From positions 2,108,001 through 2,172,000 of the forward strand of contig NZ_CP014263.1 in NCBI RefSeq assembly GCF_001988955.1: DNA of 64,000 nt, given 5' to 3'. The notes beneath the pieces were generated by a model. The model was not told where the DNA came from. It saw nothing but the letters and a program-made list of their open reading frames with translations, and ran no database searches. Source of the DNA: Spirosoma montaniterrae. Lineage in GTDB: Bacteria > Bacteroidota > Bacteroidia > Cytophagales > Spirosomataceae. The translations under genes and the position numbers were made by a program. This document shows, in pieces, positions 25,731 to 37,498 of the stretch; within the stretch, counting starts at the first letter, position 1, and each line of letters begins with the position of its first letter.

Positions 25731-28700
25731 ATGGAACAGAACCCCCGACCCAACCAACATCTTCGTAAGCCTTCCGCCTTTGCCGGTGGTCGTCAGCAGG
25801 CTGGTAATGCCTGGCTCGATACGGGCCTCGGCAAACTGCCTCCGCAGGCATTGGACCTCGAAGAAGCGGTATTGGGCGCACTTATGATCGAGAAAGACGC
25901 CCTCTCATCGGTGGTTGACATTCTTAAGCCCGAAACGTTCTATAAAGAAGCGCATCAGCGCATTTACAACGCTATTCTAACGCTGTTCGGCAACTCCGAT
26001 CCTATTGATTTGCTGACCGTTACGCAACAATTGCGTAAAATTGGCGAACTGGAATTGGTGGGCGGGGGCGGCTACGTATCGGAGCTGACATTCCGGGTAA
26101 ATTCGGCAGCCAACATTGAATACCACGCCCGGATTGTGTCGGAGCAGGCCCTGAAACGGGCACTTATCGCCATGTCGTCAACGATTTTGCGCGATGCTTA
26201 CGAAGATACGACCGACGTATTTGAACTGCTCGACCGCACTGAGCAATCGCTCTTCAAGATTTCGGAATCGAACATCAAGAAAAACTACGCCGACATGAGC
26301 ACCATTGTGCGCATGGCGTTGAACGAACTCGAAACCAAGAAAAACCAGGAAGGGCTGACGGGCGTTCCGTCGGGTTTTACCAACCTCGACCGCGTGACGT
26401 CGGGCTGGCAACCCACCGAATTGATTATTCTGGCAGCCAGGCCCGCGATGGGGAAATGCCTCGGCAAAGGCACCAAAGTGGTCATGTTCGATGGTTCGCT
26501 GCGCAAGGTTGAAGATGTTCGCGAGGGCGAATTGCTGATGGGCGACGACTCGACCCCCCGGCGGGTGTTGAGCATTGCACGGGGCCGCGAGCGGATGTAC
26601 TGGGTGCATCAGAACAAAGGCATTAGCTACCGGGTGAACGAAAGTCACATTCTGTCACTGAAGCGGTCGCGCACGGAAGGACCGCACCGGAAAGGCGATG
26701 TATTAAATATTTCAGTACGCGACTACCTGACCAAATCCGACAAGTTTAAAACGAATTACAAAGGCTATAAAGTAGCCGTTGCGTTTCCCGAACAGACCGT
26801 TCCCCTCGACCCGTATTTCGTGGGTTTGTGGCTCGGCGACGGTCATAGTTACAGTTCCCGGATCACAAACACAGACCCCGAAGTCATTGATTATTTGCAG
26901 GAATATGCCGATGGCCTGGGCTTGCAAATGGTAACGTATCAGCAGGCCAATCGCACGGCCAATTACGCTATTACGTCGGGGCAGCGTGGCGGGGCGCAAT
27001 ACGGCAATCGGCTGGAGATATTCAACGTGCAGGAGCAGCTTCGCGGGCTTTCGGTACTTGAAAACAAGCACATTCCGCGTTCGTACCTGATCAACTCGAC
27101 CGAAAATCGGCTGAAACTGCTGGCCGGATTAATCGACAGCGACGGGCACTATCAGGAACAGTTCAACTGCTACGAGATTACCCAGAAGAATAAAGAACTG
27201 GCCGAACAGCTAAAATATCTCTGCGACACGCTTGGTTTCCGTTGTTCGTTGAAGGAAAAACAAGCCGTTATTACCACACGTGGCTATGTATCAACCGTTT
27301 ACCGGCTACGAATCTTCGGTAATTTGGACTCGATTCCTGTTCGCATCGAACGAAAAAGAGCACGGCCATTACGTGCCCGCGCCGACTGGCGCGTGACAGG
27401 GATTCGTGTGGAGTACGACCAAGTTGATGATTACTACGGCTTCACTATCGACGGAAACCACCTGTTTTTGCTCGAAGATATGACCGTAACGCACAACACT
27501 GCTTTTGTAGTTAGTGCCCTGCGGAATGCGGCTGTGGATCATGGCAAGCCGGTGGCAATTTTCTCGCTCGAAATGTCGTCGGTGCAATTGGTCAATCGTT
27601 TGATCTCTGCTGAAGCCGAAATCGACTCCGAGAAAATCAGAAAAGGAACGCTCGCTCCGCACGAGTGGACCCAACTGCACCACAAGATTCAGCGGCTGAC
27701 CGAAGCCCCGATTTTTATTGACGATACACCGGCCCTCTCCATTCTGGAACTGCGGGCCAAATGCCGACGTCTGAAAGCCCAACACGATATTCAGATGGTG
27801 GTGATCGACTACCTGCAACTGATGTCGGGCGATACGAGCGGGCGGGGCGGTGGCAACCGCGAGCAGGAAATTGCGTCGATTTCGCGGGCGTTGAAGAACC
27901 TGGCAAAGGAGTTGAACGTGCCGGTTATCGCGCTTTCGCAGTTAAGCCGGGCCGTTGAAACACGCGGTGGCGACAAAAAGCCGCAACTCTCCGACCTTCG
28001 CGAATCGGGCTGTCTGACGGGGGATACGCTTCTGGTAGACGCCGTTACGGGCCAACGAACAACCATCCGCGAACTGGCCGAAGCCAACGCACACAACTTT
28101 TATATATCCGGCACGAGCGAAAGCTGGACTGTTGGCCCTGAGCGGGTTACGCATGTATTTAGTACGGGTCGTAAGCCGGTGTTCAAACTTACAACGCGTT
28201 CGGGCAGAACTATAAAGGCAACGGATAATCACGAGTTTCTGAAGCTAACCGGCTGGTATCGCTTAGACGAACTGAGTGTTGGCGACCACGTTGCCGTACC
28301 CCGCAAAATTCGGGTCTCGGCTCCGCAGAACCCACTTTCTGACAATGAGCTGATACTGCTGGCGCACCTGTTGGGCGATGGTTGCATTCTGCCCAAACAG
28401 CCCTATCATTACACAAGTGCCGACGAGGCCAACCTCGCCATCGTTGAAAAAACGGCAAACGCGCTATTCGGCATTGAACCACGCCGGGTGGCCCAGGGGA
28501 ATTGGCAGCACACGTATCTGCCTGCCCCCTACCGGCTCACGCATGGTAAGCGTCACCCCATCACGGATTGGTATAATCGTTTAGGTTTGGCGCGGAGCAG
28601 GAGTTATGAGAAACGCATTCCCGACGCAGTTTTCGGTTGCGATGAAGCCAAAATAGCACTCTTTTTGCACCATTTGTGGGCTACAGATGGCAACATTAGC

Positions 28701-29648
28701 TGGAAACGATTGCCAGATCGAAAACCGGGTGCGGCCATTTATTACGCGTCTTCGAGTCAGCAGTTGGCCCGCGACGTTCAGCACCTGCTGTTGCGGCTGG
28801 GCGTTCTGTCGACGGTTAAACAGGCATCGTCGACCGGGGAGTACCGGCCTATGTACCATGTTCACATTCAGGGAAAGACGCAGCAAAAGGCTTTCCTGAC
28901 ACTGGTGAACAGCTACGGGCAACGGGGTGAGTTAGCTCCTGAATTATTGGCAGCTTTAGATGAAGTTGCCGAAAATACAAATGTCGATGTAATTCCGAAG
29001 GAGGTTTGGCATTCCGTGATAACGGGCTGTAAAACTGATGATCAGATTAGCTGGCGTACATTGTCGGACCGAATCGGTATGCAATATGCGGGCAGTAGCC
29101 TGTTCAAAGCGGGCGTATCGCGGCAGCGCATGGCCCGGCTCTACGAAGCCATGCCCTACGACGTACTGAAGCAGTTGGCCGAATCTGACGTGCTTTGGGA
29201 TGAGGTTGTATCGATAGAGTCGCTTGGCGAAGAAGACGTATATGACGCCACCGTACCCTCGGTACACAATTTTGTTGCCAACGATATTATCGTTCATAAC
29301 AGCATCGAGCAGGACGCCGATATGGTTTGCTTCCTGTATCGGCCTGAGTATTACAACATTACCCAGGATGAAAGTGGCAATTCAACGGCGGGTATTGGCG
29401 AGGTAATCATTGCAAAAAACCGGAGTGGCTCGCTCGATACGATCCAACTCCGGTTCATCAACAAATACACCAAATTCTGCGACCTCGATACGTACTTCGA
29501 GCCAGTACAGGCGCAGGGCTTCGCGCCCGACGTAAACGGCCTGAGCAGTTTCGACGCTCCCCCGGCCAGCGGCAGTGTCTTTAAAAGCAAAGCCAATAAC
29601 TTGTCCAATTTCGGCAACGCCGACCCCAGTCAGGAAACACCGTTCTGA
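25731..29648 (+). CDS. dnaB: Replicative DNA helicase DnaB containing two inteins
   Basis: 1305 residues, of which about 528 remain after removal of two inteins (residues 243-589 and 761-1190). The host protein has the N-terminal DnaB domain (about 35-140, LEEAVLGALMIEKDALSSVV), a linker, and the RecA-like helicase domain. The inteins split Walker A exactly (ARPAMGK, then TAFVVSALRN) and the conserved LSDLRESG, then SIEQDADMVCFLYRPE. Both sites are known intein sites in DnaB. The helicase unwinds the replication fork as a hexamer, so it can work only after both splicing events. The C-terminus is a short variable tail. Confidence 0.97.
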   Translation: MEQNPRPNQHLRKPSAFAGGRQQAGNAWLDTGLGKLPPQALDLEEAVLGALMIEKDALSSVVDILKPETFYKEAHQRIYNAILTLFGNSDPIDLLTVTQQLRKIGELELVGGGGYVSELTFRVNSAANIEYHARIVSEQALKRALIAMSSTILRDAYEDTTDVFELLDRTEQSLFKISESNIKKNYADMSTIVRMALNELETKKNQEGLTGVPSGFTNLDRVTSGWQPTELIILAARPAMGKCLGKGTKVVMFDGSLRKVEDVREGELLMGDDSTPRRVLSIARGRERMYWVHQNKGISYRVNESHILSLKRSRTEGPHRKGDVLNISVRDYLTKSDKFKTNYKGYKVAVAFPEQTVPLDPYFVGLWLGDGHSYSSRITNTDPEVIDYLQEYADGLGLQMVTYQQANRTANYAITSGQRGGAQYGNRLEIFNVQEQLRGLSVLENKHIPRSYLINSTENRLKLLAGLIDSDGHYQEQFNCYEITQKNKELAEQLKYLCDTLGFRCSLKEKQAVITTRGYVSTVYRLRIFGNLDSIPVRIERKRARPLRARADWRVTGIRVEYDQVDDYYGFTIDGNHLFLLEDMTVTHNTAFVVSALRNAAVDHGKPVAIFSLEMSSVQLVNRLISAEAEIDSEKIRKGTLAPHEWTQLHHKIQRLTEAPIFIDDTPALSILELRAKCRRLKAQHDIQMVVIDYLQLMSGDTSGRGGGNREQEIASISRALKNLAKELNVPVIALSQLSRAVETRGGDKKPQLSDLRESGCLTGDTLLVDAVTGQRTTIRELAEANAHNFYISGTSESWTVGPERVTHVFSTGRKPVFKLTTRSGRTIKATDNHEFLKLTGWYRLDELSVGDHVAVPRKIRVSAPQNPLSDNELILLAHLLGDGCILPKQPYHYTSADEANLAIVEKTANALFGIEPRRVAQGNWQHTYLPAPYRLTHGKRHPITDWYNRLGLARSRSYEKRIPDAVFGCDEAKIALFLHHLWATDGNISWKRLPDRKPGAAIYYASSSQQLARDVQHLLLRLGVLSTVKQASSTGEYRPMYHVHIQGKTQQKAFLTLVNSYGQRGELAPELLAALDEVAENTNVDVIPKEVWHSVITGCKTDDQISWRTLSDRIGMQYAGSSLFKAGVSRQRMARLYEAMPYDVLKQLAESDVLWDEVVSIESLGEEDVYDATVPSVHNFVANDIIVHNSIEQDADMVCFLYRPEYYNITQDESGNSTAGIGEVIIAKNRSGSLDTIQLRFINKYTKFCDLDTYFEPVQAQGFAPDVNGLSSFDAPPASGSVFKSKANNLSNFGNADPSQETPF
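26457..27497 (+). other. Intein 1 in DnaB (P-loop site), with LAGLIDADG endonuclease
   Basis: 347 residues from Cys (CLGKGTKVVMFDGSLRKVED) to the terminal HN, followed by Thr as the +1 nucleophile. Block B is VNESHILSLK. The endonuclease motifs are FVGLWLGDGH and LLAGLIDSDGHY, both with intact acidic residues, so homing activity is likely. The C-terminal splicing part is YGFTIDGNHLFLLEDMTVTHN-like. The intein interrupts the ATP-binding loop, the most conserved target in the gene. Confidence 0.95.
28011..29300 (+). other. Intein 2 in DnaB (ESG/SIEQDAD site), with LAGLIDADG endonuclease
   Basis: 430 residues from Cys (CLTGDTLLVDAVTGQRTTIR) to the terminal HN, followed by Ser. Block B is ATDNHEFLKLTGW. 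The endonuclease-like motifs are LLAHLLGDGC and FLHHLWATDGN, each keeping its aspartate. The splicing C-terminus is VYDATVPSVHNFVANDIIVH followed by N. The sequence is unlike intein 1, so the two were gained independently and not by duplication. Confidence 0.95.
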
Positions 29649-33166: not shown

Positions 33167-33661
33167 TCAAAACAAACGCATCTGCCCCGGTGCAGCCTTG
33201 CCAGACGCAATGCCTTCATGTTCCAGCAGCCATTGTTTGCGCCAAAGGCCGCCTGCGTAGCCCGTCAGCGAACCGTCGGAGCCGATGATACGGTGGCAGG
33301 GTACAACAATCCAGAGCGGATTTTTGCCGTTCGCAGCCGCCACCGCCCGAATCGCTTTTTCGTCGCCCAATCGCCGAGCCAGGGTCAGATACGACAGCGA
33401 CGTACCGAACGGAACCTCCAGCAGGGCATGCCATACGCGCTGCTGAAAGGGAGTACCGGCAGGATTTAGCTTAAAATCAAACGTTTGGCGCGTACCGGCG
33501 AAGTACTCGGTTAACTGGGCGATGGCTTGCTGAACGGGTTCGGGAAGATTGTCGGGCGAAGTTGATTCGGCAGGTTCGTTCAGGCACGCAATGACCGACA
33601 CGCCCGCATCGTCGCCCGTGATACGCACTGTTCCTACCGGAGAAGTCATGTACGCAGTCAT
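33167..33661 (-). CDS. ogt: Methylated-DNA-protein-cysteine methyltransferase
   Basis: 164 residues. The active site is IVVPCHRIIGSDGSLTGYAG with acceptor C122. FQQRVWHALLEVPFGTSLSY is the DNA-binding wing region. It removes alkyl groups from O6-alkylguanine in a single-turnover transfer to its cysteine. It begins 2 bases after the response-regulator stop and is therefore the third gene of the kinase operon, an unusual partner for a two-component system. Confidence 0.95.
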   Translation of the reverse strand: MTAYMTSPVGTVRITGDDAGVSVIACLNEPAESTSPDNLPEPVQQAIAQLTEYFAGTRQTFDFKLNPAGTPFQQRVWHALLEVPFGTSLSYLTLARRLGDEKAIRAVAAANGKNPLWIVVPCHRIIGSDGSLTGYAGGLWRKQWLLEHEGIASGKAAPGQMRLF

Positions 33662-33663
33662 CG

Positions 33664-34074
33664 CTATTCAGGGAAATATCTGGCAACAATTTCGGCCAAT
33701 ATGCCGGTAGTCAAGGGTTTAGCATAGTAGCCCCTCACTACCTCAAAAGCCGCAGCCTGCCCCCGGTCGGCGGGATTTATTGACGTCGTAAGCATCATCA
33801 CCAAAACAAGGCTTTTCAATTCTTCGGGCAACCTGTGGTATTCCTCCAAAAACTCGAACCCGTTCATACCGGGCATGTTGATGTCGAGGAAGATAACGTC
33901 GGGGCGTTCATAATCAGCGGCTTCCGGCTGTGCCAGATAGCGCATAGCGGCCATACCGTTTTCGGCAATACGCACCGTTTCGCACAGGCCCGATTCCGTG
34001 ATAACAAGTTGGTGGTAAAAATTATCGTCGGGATCATCGTCAATCAACAGGATGCAATGAATTGGTTTGGGCAT
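33664..34074 (-). CDS. Single-domain response regulator (Rcp1-like)
   Basis: 136 residues, receiver domain only. The acidic pocket is LIDDDPDDN (10-18), the phospho-acceptor is D64 in IFLDINMPGMNG, the Thr switch is in MMLTTSIN and the Lys is in YYAKPL. It has no output domain, so it acts by protein contact or phosphorelay. It overlaps the 3' end of the kinase gene by 35 bases and most likely receives phosphate from that kinase. Confidence 0.93.
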   Translation of the reverse strand: MPKPIHCILLIDDDPDDNFYHQLVITESGLCETVRIAENGMAAMRYLAQPEAADYERPDVIFLDINMPGMNGFEFLEEYHRLPEELKSLVLVMMLTTSINPADRGQAAAFEVVRGYYAKPLTTGILAEIVARYFPE

Positions 34075-35254
34075 AATGCTGAACGGTTTTTATTTCTTTT
34101 GGTATGGTCAGATAGAAAGTTGTGCCAGCACCGGGTATACTGGTAAGCCAGATTTGTCCCCCATAAATGTCGATTACTTTTTTGCAGGTTGCCAGACCAA
34201 TGCCCGTACCAGGGTACTCATTGCGCCCATGCAGTCGCTGAAAAATCTGGAATACCCGCTCATGATACTGTGGCTCAATACCAATGCCATTGTCGGCCAC
34301 GGCAAACTGGTACGCATCGCCCAGATCGGTAGCCTGAATGCTCAATTTGGTGGGCACATCGACACGTCGGTACTTTAACCCGTTGGTAATCAAGTTCTGG
34401 AACACCTGTTTCAGATCAGTGCGATGCGCTGTCAGCACGGGCAACGGGCCAACCTCTACCGTTGCATTGGCCGTTTCTATATCATCCTGATGTTCAGTCA
34501 GAATTTCGGCAACGAGCTGATTCATATCTACCGGCTGAAATTCCGTAACTGATCCCACCCGTGAGAAATCAAGCAAATCGTTGATAAGGATGCGCATTCG
34601 TCCGGCAGCCGCCGTAGACGTGTCAATCAACCGCTGGGCATCGCCATCTAACTGATTACCGTATTTGGTTTCGAGCAGTGTCAGGTAATTGACAATCGTT
34701 TTCAGGGGCGACTGAAGGTCGTGCGAGGCTACGTAGGCGAACTGCTGAAGCTCCTGATTGGAGCGGGCCAGTTCCTGCATGGCCTGCTGCCGAAACACCA
34801 GTTCGCGGTCAAACTCACGCGAGGTTTTCAACCCTACGGCTTCGTTGAAATACCGAATCAGGGCAATAACGGTTGCTACTGATACTACGCCCGTCAGAAA
34901 CCGGATAAAGGCACTGAAGCGGTAGGCCGGCCACCAGAACATCATGGCATCGAGGAGATGCGTAGCTCCGCAGAGCAGGATAAACGCGCCAAACAGGACA
35001 AAAACACCGGGCAGCGGTACTCCTTTTTTAAGAACAACAAAGCGAATCAGAATCAACGGAATCGCCATGTAAGCCAGCCAGATTGTTAAGTCCGAAACAA
35101 TATAAAGCCAGCCGTGAAAGTCGGTCCAGCGGCCACAAAACCAGCGCGGGGGCCAATCATTCGTTTGAAAAAGACGCTGAAAAAAATCGATAAGCTGTTC
35201 CATGAACGCGAGCGCAAAACCACTTCGTTTCGTTGGTGGAGTTGGGTGAGTCAA
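34040..35254 (-). CDS. Histidine kinase with ethylene-receptor-like membrane domain
   Basis: 404 residues (an internal ATG at 35203 is also possible). Residues 48-135 hold three hydrophobic helices that align without gaps to the plant ETR1 ethylene-binding domain: SDLTIWLAYMAIPL and FGAFILLCGATHL. The ETR1 positions D25, Y32, I62, C65 and H69 correspond to D55, Y62, I92, C95 and H99 here. A coiled coil (140-172) leads to the HisKA domain with H178 (VASHDLQSPLK) and the ATPase domain with N-box NLITNGLKYR, DNGIGI and GTGIGL. C95 and H99 coordinate copper in ETR1, so ethylene or a similar small ligand may be sensed. No GAF domain is present. Confidence 0.9.
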   Translation of the reverse strand: MTHPTPPTKRSGFALAFMEQLIDFFQRLFQTNDWPPRWFCGRWTDFHGWLYIVSDLTIWLAYMAIPLILIRFVVLKKGVPLPGVFVLFGAFILLCGATHLLDAMMFWWPAYRFSAFIRFLTGVVSVATVIALIRYFNEAVGLKTSREFDRELVFRQQAMQELARSNQELQQFAYVASHDLQSPLKTIVNYLTLLETKYGNQLDGDAQRLIDTSTAAAGRMRILINDLLDFSRVGSVTEFQPVDMNQLVAEILTEHQDDIETANATVEVGPLPVLTAHRTDLKQVFQNLITNGLKYRRVDVPTKLSIQATDLGDAYQFAVADNGIGIEPQYHERVFQIFQRLHGRNEYPGTGIGLATCKKVIDIYGGQIWLTSIPGAGTTFYLTIPKEIKTVQHYAQTNSLHPVD

Positions 35255-35269
35255 AGTTAATCACATTTT

Positions 35270-35293
35270 AAACGATAGCGTGTACTATCGTTT
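35270..35293 (-). terminator. Hairpin at the end of the S9 peptidase gene
   Basis: AAACGATAG (35270-35278) and CTATCGTTT (35285-35293) form a 9-bp stem with a 6-base loop, overlapping the stop codon of the peptidase gene. It could separate that transcript from the downstream kinase operon. Confidence 0.6.
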
Positions 35294-37469
35294 ACTTCGT
35301 TGCCGTTGAGGAACGGTCGGATGCCAACAGGTATTTCCCGAAGAATACATCGAGTGCCTTGTAGGTCTTTACCCAATTTTTATGCAACAGAAAACTATGC
35401 ACGTCGTCGGGAAAAATCAGCACTTCGGTAGGTACGTTGCGGGCGCGGAGTTTCTGAACCAGATCAACCGTTTCGGCAAACGTTACATTGCGGTCGTCGT
35501 CGCCGTGAACGAACAAACAGGGCGACCGCCAGAAGTCGAGGTTATGATTCGGCGACGATTCGAATGCTACTTTCATGTCGGCCTCGCCAATGCCCCAGCC
35601 GCCCCCCGGCGAAAACATGTTACCCCGCCACGACCAGTCGTGAACGCCGTGCAGATCGACGCCAGCCGCGAACAGGTCGGAGTTGCGGGCCAGGCCCATT
35701 GCCGTCAGGTAGCCACCATACGACCCGCCCCATAACCCGATGCGGAGGGGGTCAACGTCGGCACGGTTCTGGAGATATTTAGCACCAGCCAGCACGTCCT
35801 GATACTCCGACGCCCCGCGCGGCCCCTGTTTGTCGGCCCGCCGAAACGCCCGCCCGTAGCCAATGCCGGCCCGAAAATTCACCGACAACACCACGTATCC
35901 CTGCGAAGCTAAATATTGATTCATGGCGTAGGCATTGGCGTAGTAGCTGCCCCGGTAATGCCAGCCCAGCAGCATCTGTCGCATGGGGCCACCGTGGAGG
36001 AAAATCAGGCCGGGGTGACGGGCAGCCGAGGTTTGCCGGGATGGCGGGGGAAGAAAGAGTTGGGCGTGAACGGTGGTGCCATCGGCAGCTTTCAGGATTA
36101 CCTGCTTAGGTTCGACCAGTGCGGCTGTCGGAAAACGTTGGGCATCGAAGTCAGCAGGTTGCGGAAACAGGGTTGTTTCGCGTGGTTCGCCCAATTTCCG
36201 GTAAGCAATACCCGTACTGCGGTTCCAGCCTGCCGAACGATAGAAAAGCCGGTCGCCCACCAGCACAGGGTCGGTTTCGATACCGGTGCCGGGCGTCAAC
36301 AGTTCGGGTTTCCCTGACCCGTCGGTGCTGACCCGCCAGATGTGTCGCCGGTCTATATCGAGCGTATCATTGGCCGGATTATTTGCGCTGAAATACAGCG
36401 TTTTGCCATCAGGCGACAGGCAGGTTTCTTCGGCTTCGTAGTGGCTGCTGCCATCGGCATTACCCGTTACATTGCGGGGTTGTCCGGGCGAGTCGGGCGA
36501 CAGGGCATATACGTGCATCCAGCCTTGATGTTCCGAAAAAAACAGGAGTTGATTGGCCGCTGTCCAGCGCAGTGGTTCGGCGGGATAATACTGGGCAAAT
36601 CCACCATCGTCGGCGGGCGAGTGCCACAGTTCGCGGCCTTCGCCAGTGGCAACGTCGGCTACCCAAACGGCAAATCGATTGCCGCCCATGATGTTTTCCA
36701 ACTCGCCATGCCGCTGCCCCGGTTGCCGCAAAAACGCCACCCGCTTCCCATCGGGCGACCATACCGGTGTCTTGTCGCGGTCGACGTCCGGAGCCAGCCA
36801 CGTAATGGTACGCTCCGCCAGCCTGTATACGCCAATCAGGTTATGATAGCCCCGATTGCTCACAAACAACACGCTGCTGCCATCGGGCGACCAATTTGCG
36901 TCGGACAGAAAGCCCCGCGCCGAAAATAGTTTGGTTGGTACGCTGTTGTTTTGCCCGTTGCGTTTGGTTTGGTTCGTTACCAAATCAGCTACCATCACCT
37001 GTCCGCCCTGCATAAACAGTAGTTGATTTTCGCTGGGCGAAAACGTCGGATGGCTACCCGCACCAATTCGGCGCGGCTGACCGTTGCCATCCACGGCAAC
37101 AACATACACGGCCTGTTCGGCACCGGCGGGGTTGCTGGTCGGGTTGGGGCTAACACCCTCCCGATTCTTGCCGCTTCCACGCACATAAGCCAACTGCCTG
37201 CCATCGGGTGAGAAGCAAAATTCGCTGAAGTCCTGCCCATCGTCAACTGTCTGGCTCGTGAGTTTCCTGGTTTTGTTGCTGGTGGGCGTATAGACATACA
37301 CGTTCCGGACGCCTTCGGTTGTACTGACCCACACCACATGGTCTGAACCGGCAGTCAGATTCGAGCAGTAGGGTGCTGATAGAACATCATCAATAGAAAA
37401 ACGGGCGGGAGTCTGGGCGTCTGCGCGATAAAAGAAGAGGAGAAGAAACAGTATAACGGCGCGTTTCAT
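35292..37469 (-). CDS. S9 family prolyl oligopeptidase-type peptidase
   Basis: About 725 residues from the ATG at 37469 (MKRAVILFLLLFFYRADAQ), a clear signal peptide. The N-terminal part is a beta-propeller with repeated SPDG motifs (FSPDGRQLAYVRG, WSPDGKRVAFLR). The C-terminal alpha/beta hydrolase carries the nucleophile GLWGGSYGGYLTAMG, the Asp in VHGDDDRNV and the His in FPDDVHSFL. It resembles DPP4/acylaminoacyl peptidases. It is exported, so it likely trims peptides in the periplasm. Confidence 0.93.
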   Translation of the reverse strand: MKRAVILFLLLFFYRADAQTPARFSIDDVLSAPYCSNLTAGSDHVVWVSTTEGVRNVYVYTPTSNKTRKLTSQTVDDGQDFSEFCFSPDGRQLAYVRGSGKNREGVSPNPTSNPAGAEQAVYVVAVDGNGQPRRIGAGSHPTFSPSENQLLFMQGGQVMVADLVTNQTKRNGQNNSVPTKLFSARGFLSDANWSPDGSSVLFVSNRGYHNLIGVYRLAERTITWLAPDVDRDKTPVWSPDGKRVAFLRQPGQRHGELENIMGGNRFAVWVADVATGEGRELWHSPADDGGFAQYYPAEPLRWTAANQLLFFSEHQGWMHVYALSPDSPGQPRNVTGNADGSSHYEAEETCLSPDGKTLYFSANNPANDTLDIDRRHIWRVSTDGSGKPELLTPGTGIETDPVLVGDRLFYRSAGWNRSTGIAYRKLGEPRETTLFPQPADFDAQRFPTAALVEPKQVILKAADGTTVHAQLFLPPPSRQTSAARHPGLIFLHGGPMRQMLLGWHYRGSYYANAYAMNQYLASQGYVVLSVNFRAGIGYGRAFRRADKQGPRGASEYQDVLAGAKYLQNRADVDPLRIGLWGGSYGGYLTAMGLARNSDLFAAGVDLHGVHDWSWRGNMFSPGGGWGIGEADMKVAFESSPNHNLDFWRSPCLFVHGDDDRNVTFAETVDLVQKLRARNVPTEVLIFPDDVHSFLLHKNWVKTYKALDVFFGKYLLASDRSSTATK

Positions 37470-37498
37470 ACAGAACAGGGTTTGCTGTTCCAAGATAC

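Follow-up and report, generated by a model that had tools for sequence, protein, structure and literature searches.

The window, that is the whole stretch of 64,000 nucleotides of Spirosoma montaniterrae DNA analysed here, carries on its minus strand a gene for an ethylene-receptor-like sensor histidine kinase, the end of which is overlapped over 35 bases by the start of a response regulator gene (Table 1). The kinase reading frame covers 404 codons when counted from a TTG at 35254, the start adopted in the original prediction, and its stop ends at 34040. Comparison with five near relatives makes this TTG less likely than an ATG at 35203: since the first 17 residues show little conservation (12-33% identity) and the sequences align from M18 onwards (MEQLIDFF...WPPRWFCG.W), the ATG is the most likely start, and residue numbers below refer to the resulting 387-residue form unless stated otherwise. 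The rejected TTG is overlapped by a match to TAnnTTTG, which we take to be the Bacteroidota -7 promoter motif; the signal is weak, 10 of 56 homologues having the motif in their upstream region compared with 5.0% of 8516 background windows of 150 bases. Where the S9 peptidase gene ends, immediately upstream of the kinase gene, an inverted repeat with arms of 9 bases and a loop of 6 (35270-35293) was also noticed by eye; it is absent from the terminator-like sites found.

The regulator is receiver-only, with no output domain in Pfam. Using an HMM built from its own matches, a regulator was found directly downstream of the kinase in 42 of 81 loci (the window and the best 80 of 182 relatives) and was missing from this position in 39. 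The locus displays the intact HisKA/HATPase_c motifs and the overlapping gene for a putative partner regulator that are required of a bacterial-type receptor. The operon first proposed stands for the kinase-regulator pair, which the relatives support, but a wider gene set has no such support. An extended version including the S9 peptidase (35292-37493) and MGMT (33167-33661) genes was rejected because these neighbours are rarely kept: MGMT, separated from the regulator by 2 bases, lies nearby in 5 and directly downstream in 3 of the 80 related loci (best 80 of 182 relatives), and S9-peptidase-like matches, of 24-26% identity, occur at 4 of the same 80. The genome holds a Cu-ATPase over cut-off, which is uninformative since 13 of 14 control genomes have one too. 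As for ACC deaminase, its two matches in the genome both fall below the family cut-off. Elsewhere in the window, the plus strand (25731-29648) encodes a DnaB helicase of 1305 residues in which two insertions resemble inteins (Pfam Hom_end_hint/Hom_end and Intein_splicing/LAGLIDADG_3).

Table 1. Features of the kinase-regulator locus (window positions) and of three related loci (positions in each locus)
Feature	Position	Strand	Basis
Ethylene-receptor-like sensor histidine kinase, 387 aa	34040..35203	-	Pfam ETR1_N, HisKA and HATPase_c; start from relatives
TAACTTTG, match to TAnnTTTG overlapping the rejected TTG start	35252..35259	-	weak
Putative ethylene-binding domain as aligned, 98 codons, residues 27-124	34832..35125	-	Pfam and alignment
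D38 (ETR1 D25)	35090..35092	-	alignment
Y45 (ETR1 Y32)	35069..35071	-	alignment
I48 P49 (ETR1 I35 P36)	35057..35062	-	alignment
I75 (ETR1 I62)	34979..34981	-	alignment
C78 (ETR1 C65, Cu(I) ligand in ETR1)	34970..34972	-	alignment; ligand role, PMC13012798
H82 (ETR1 H69, Cu(I) ligand in ETR1)	34958..34960	-	alignment; ligand role, PMC13012798
R101 (ETR1 K91, AzoEtr1 K98), proposed partner of the Asp	34901..34903	-	alignment
H161, phospho-accepting His of HisKA (ASHDLQ)	34721..34723	-	Pfam and motif
Single-domain response regulator, 136 aa, starting inside the kinase gene; acceptor D64 by motif	33664..34074	-	Pfam Response_reg, E=9e-15
159-aa protein, then PAS-HisKA-HATPase_c kinase, then regulator, in the same order	L131:3923-6342, L132:3923-6346, L115:3923-6328		

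The profile search agreed with the ethylene-binding domain originally proposed for the membrane part. Residues 47-140 (TTG numbering) match Pfam ETR1_N (PF25487) with 107.6 bits against a cut-off of 27 (E=4e-31); this is the only match in the whole genome (5.80 Mb, one contig), and no other Pfam family matches the membrane part. The domain is joined directly to HisKA (169-234) and HATPase_c (278-387, same numbering), and all seven residues required in ETR1 are present, in keeping with the proposed identity as an ethylene-receptor-like sensor kinase. These residues are D55, Y62, I65, P66, I92, C95 and H99 in the 404-codon numbering, Y62 corresponding to what we take to be Y32 of ETR1. D25, I35, P36, I62, C65 and H69 are named as ethylene-site residues of ETR1 in PMC6586836, and the requirement for seven is stated in PMC11819568 and PMC6682694. 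The protein shows no further Pfam domain at E<=0.001, whether GAF, phytochrome or PAS, which confirms that it lacks the GAF domain of plant receptors. A receptor of both light and ethylene, the two inputs combined in SynEtr1 (PMC11819568), is for want of a GAF or phytochrome domain hardly conceivable here.

Conservation was evaluated on 101 aligned domains, comprising the window, 79 of the 80 loci taken from the best 80 of 182 relatives, two plasmid loci and 19 loci of the phylum sample. The mean frequency of the top residue is 98.6% at the seven sites versus 63.5% in the 92 other columns, and the full set is found in 94 of the 101 domains; the patterns used for recruitment partly favoured the Y, I and P sites, the D, I62, C and H sites being in no pattern. 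The full set also occurs in 15 of the 19 phylum-sample matches (22 found, three from the family of S. montaniterrae left out). A broader collection of 204 loci yielded a match in 203 (all but L183) and, once three gappy sequences were dropped and identical ones merged, 175 distinct domains remained, which keep the Cys in 169 cases, the His in 163, the Asp in 165 and all seven residues in 147; both sets over-represent the window's relatives and do not constitute a census. A Cys followed three or four residues on by a Trp, before helix 1 (C23 here), is found in 98 of the 101 domains and recalls the lone Cys present in cyanobacterial receptors (PMC6682694). One copy, in Fibrella rubiginis (L082 4001-4294 / L035), was dropped from the alignment as interrupted, a single in-frame TGA inside the ethylene-binding domain pointing to either a disrupted gene or an error in the sequence. 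The domain has no relative among viral contigs and no solved structural relative, the one match (E=0.7) being taken as chance.

The copper-site His is replaced in 12 of the 175 domains (by Tyr in 7, Phe in 4 and Gln in 1) and the Cys in 6. Such losses within the phylum lend some credit to the view that the window protein is a remnant sensor devoid of ligand binding, its membrane part serving as an anchor only or its kinase being constitutive. This is nevertheless quite improbable for the window copy, which has every residue and a domain apparently under strong purifying selection: comparison with L062 gives a dN of 0.08 for a dS of 2.8, the latter saturated. The domain is moreover better conserved than the kinase in L067, L071 and L065 (84-86% versus 67-69% identity), the two being less clearly apart for L062 (86 versus 79%) and L063 (82 versus 81%).

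Beyond the copper site, the alignment to ETR1 departs from what was first described. The constant offset of 30 (404-codon numbering) holds from D25 through H69 but ends after the copper-site His, and the alignment is not gap-free over residues 48-135, the TM2-TM3 loop being three residues shorter than in ETR1. D25, C65, H69 and K91 of ETR1 are equated in PMC11819568 with D35, C75, H79 and K98 of AzoEtr1, giving offsets of 10, 10, 10 and 7; D38, C78, H82 and R101 of the window protein give 13, 13, 13 and 10. The spacing from the His to the basic residue is accordingly 22 in ETR1 (H69/K91) and 19 both in AzoEtr1 (H79/K98) and in the window protein (H82 to R101), so helix 3 is shifted by three relative to ETR1. 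The basic residue of helix 3 is thus present as R101, which is followed by S108 among the positions listed in the 387-residue form. The K91 site holds Arg in 133 of the 175 domains, Lys in 31 and another residue in 11, that is a basic residue in 164.

The D25 and K91 sites are acidic and basic in 163 of these domains, acidic and non-basic in 4, non-acidic and non-basic in 7 and non-acidic and basic in 1, an association with a Fisher p of 3e-9 for rows that are related by descent. On the tree, each trait changed 6 times; the covariation cannot reach significance because, of 4 independent supported pairs, about 2 change the same way and 2 do not differ (0 opposite). By corrected mutual information, the column pair comes 182nd of 4465. 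The covariation of Asp25 and Lys91 is suggestive and not significant. Where Asn or Ser occupies the D25 site (L044, L045, L143, L050, L149, L165 and L208), the K91 site is Asp or Leu, a pattern that fits the proposed ion pair over too few independent events.

Homology does not fix the ligand, and the copper-bound domain could here respond to CO, the redox state, Cu(I) itself or a small olefin or alkyne other than ethylene. The prevalence of Arg at the site where ETR1 and AzoEtr1 have Lys would be in line with a different ligand, as would the members found in Maribacter and Gramella, which we take to be marine genera and where plant ethylene should be scarce. All seven residues of the ethylene site are nonetheless retained in 147 of the 175 domains, the window's included, none of the five neighbouring genes compared with Pfam indicates copper handling, and ethylene also originates from bacteria, fungi and photochemistry (PMC11819568), so that we consider another ligand unlikely.

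An AlphaFold2 model based on 34 sequences predicts the three transmembrane helices expected for ETR1_N proteins (29-58, 65-87 and 94-124), followed by a continuous helix (128-184) holding H161. The model is a monomer without metal (mean pLDDT 78.8, with blocks of 58-83 across the membrane part, and pTM 0.56), and AlphaFold models of the ETR1 membrane part fit EPR data worse than an ab initio model (PMC13012798). Simple hydropathy delineates hydrophobic stretches at 32-91 and 95-125, helices 1 and 2 not being parted.

The window protein is, in our opinion, quite probably a Cu(I)-dependent, membrane-bound ethylene receptor kinase of the bacterial two-component type, a reading built directly on the domain identity, the residue conservation, the predicted three-helix topology, the kinase and receiver motifs and the gene overlap. 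In a dimer, as modelled for ETR1, Cu(I) would be coordinated by C78 and H82 of helix 2, and D38 of helix 1 and R101 of helix 3 would lie near the copper site. For ETR1, PMC6586836 reports a single Cu(I) in each monomer. Binding of ethylene to the copper would shift the helices, and this shift could travel down the single long helix directly into the kinase dimerisation domain, changing the phosphorylation of H161 and in turn that of D64 in the regulator. As for copper and ethylene, we infer the direction of the kinase response and the transfer to the regulator of the overlapping gene. By analogy with Azospirillum and Synechocystis, attachment, gliding or metabolism are candidate final effects.

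The distribution of the domain is patchy. It was found in 22 of 36 genomes of the genus (14 without it), 80 of 222 genomes of the Spirosomataceae (that of S. montaniterrae included) and 22 of 392 genomes of the phylum sample, as well as in 6 of 80 genomes of the family of G405, 39 of 244 of the family of G347 (37 over cut-off) and 6 of 397 of the family of G438 (2 over cut-off). The 14 control genomes gave none in the surveys of the family, the phylum sample and the G405, G347 and G438 families. The family of G347 is taken to be Chitinophagaceae because the domain of L153 is identical to that of a Chitinophagaceae record (L126). Carriers among the best 80 of 182 relatives include Spirosoma, Fibrisoma, Larkinella, Dyadobacter, Mucilaginibacter, Flavisolibacter, Maribacter and Gramella, presumably not only plant associates by their habitats. 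In the phylogeny of the domain, inferred from 99 columns, 47 of 98 inner branches are unresolved.

The relatives display several variants. Among ten proteins scanned, Mucilaginibacter L098 and L105 are devoid of PAS, which is present in Mucilaginibacter L096 and Dyadobacter L107. In Maribacter (L131), Gramella (L132) and a Bacteroidia MAG (L115), the domain forms a free-standing protein of 159 residues beside a separate kinase of 494-500 residues; the regulators of these loci are close to that of the window (E of 2.7e-37, 7.2e-36 and 3.8e-38), matches at 17 Dyadobacter and Mucilaginibacter loci reaching only 4e-12 to 5e-20. The gene order suggests that the free-standing domain of flavobacteria is possibly a receptor working in trans via the separate kinase, a subunit arrangement that, to our knowledge, is not known from plants. 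No free-standing form occurs in the family of G247, where the domain is present in 9 of 92 genomes, always in frames of 390-670 codons, and the one frame of 165 codons in the family of G438 is the Maribacter locus again (L221 lies wholly inside L131). The His-replaced domains are L144, L151, L171, L173 and L175-L182, the Cys being also gone in L144, L177-L179 and L182, and they provide a natural series of losses at the ligand site; ten of the twelve come from the family of G347, in frames of 343-365 codons. Taken jointly, these variants could tentatively be read, with more doubt than confidence, as a long-established and diversified Bacteroidota branch in which the 387-residue protein is near-minimal, the domain acts in trans in some flavobacteria, and the His of the copper site has disappeared from a side branch of Chitinophagaceae, maybe with a change of ligand.

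Few microbial ethylene receptors have been proven so far: PMC11819568 names those of Synechocystis and the fungus Rhizophagus, then adds that of Azospirillum, and mentions putative receptors in "other bacterial phyla". The role of the domain in Bacteroidota had been presented as unexplored, which agrees with the top-ranked papers of the open-licence literature, among which no work on Bacteroidota ethylene receptors was found, but the same paper had already placed putative receptors in other phyla, and Bacteroidota members may have been listed earlier. The mention of Bacteroidetes in PMC10452086 concerns ACC deaminase. The window protein is thus probably a well-supported addition to an already known receptor type, in a phylum for which the open-licence literature surveyed yielded no functional study. 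A proven Bacteroidota receptor would widen the set of bacteria perceiving a plant hormone.

Among known systems, the window pair recalls AzoEtr1-AzoRRetr1 of Azospirillum by its membrane domain, seven residues, short TM2-TM3 loop and HisKA kinase, and by a receiver-only regulator (135 residues in AzoRRetr1) encoded downstream of the kinase gene, whose stop is overlapped by the regulator start in A. brasilense (PMC11819568). AzoEtr1, for which binding and phenotypes are demonstrated and which its authors call the first in a proteobacterium, binds ethylene through a fragment of residues 1-130 cloned from strain Sp245, and its C75A and D35A variants fail to rescue (PMC11819568). It differs in having a PAS domain between sensor and kinase, absent from the window protein in Pfam, and in carrying Lys where helix 3 of the window protein has Arg. 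The domain of the window protein and its counterpart in A. brasilense Sp7 have 38.5% identity over 96 columns, and the shared kinase-regulator layout may be convergent because the regulators are only 28% identical over 64 residues. SynEtr1 of Synechocystis likewise has an ethylene-binding domain driving a His kinase with a separate regulator, slr1213 (PMC6682694), but is also a photoreceptor, whereas Pfam reveals no light-sensing domain in the window protein. Plant ETR1 and ERS1 share the N-terminal three-helix copper and ethylene domain and the His kinase, and differ by the GAF domain of plant receptors, the fused receiver of ETR1 and, in ETR1, a TM2-TM3 loop three residues longer by the residue numbers of PMC11819568. 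A minimal receptor kinase is also found in another phylum, as a plasmid protein of Novosphingobium sp. ES2-1 (L209, 384 residues) with ETR1_N directly on HisKA/HATPase_c, an overlapping regulator gene and a domain 36.9% identical to that of the window; the direct fusion of sensor and kinase is therefore not special to Bacteroidota.
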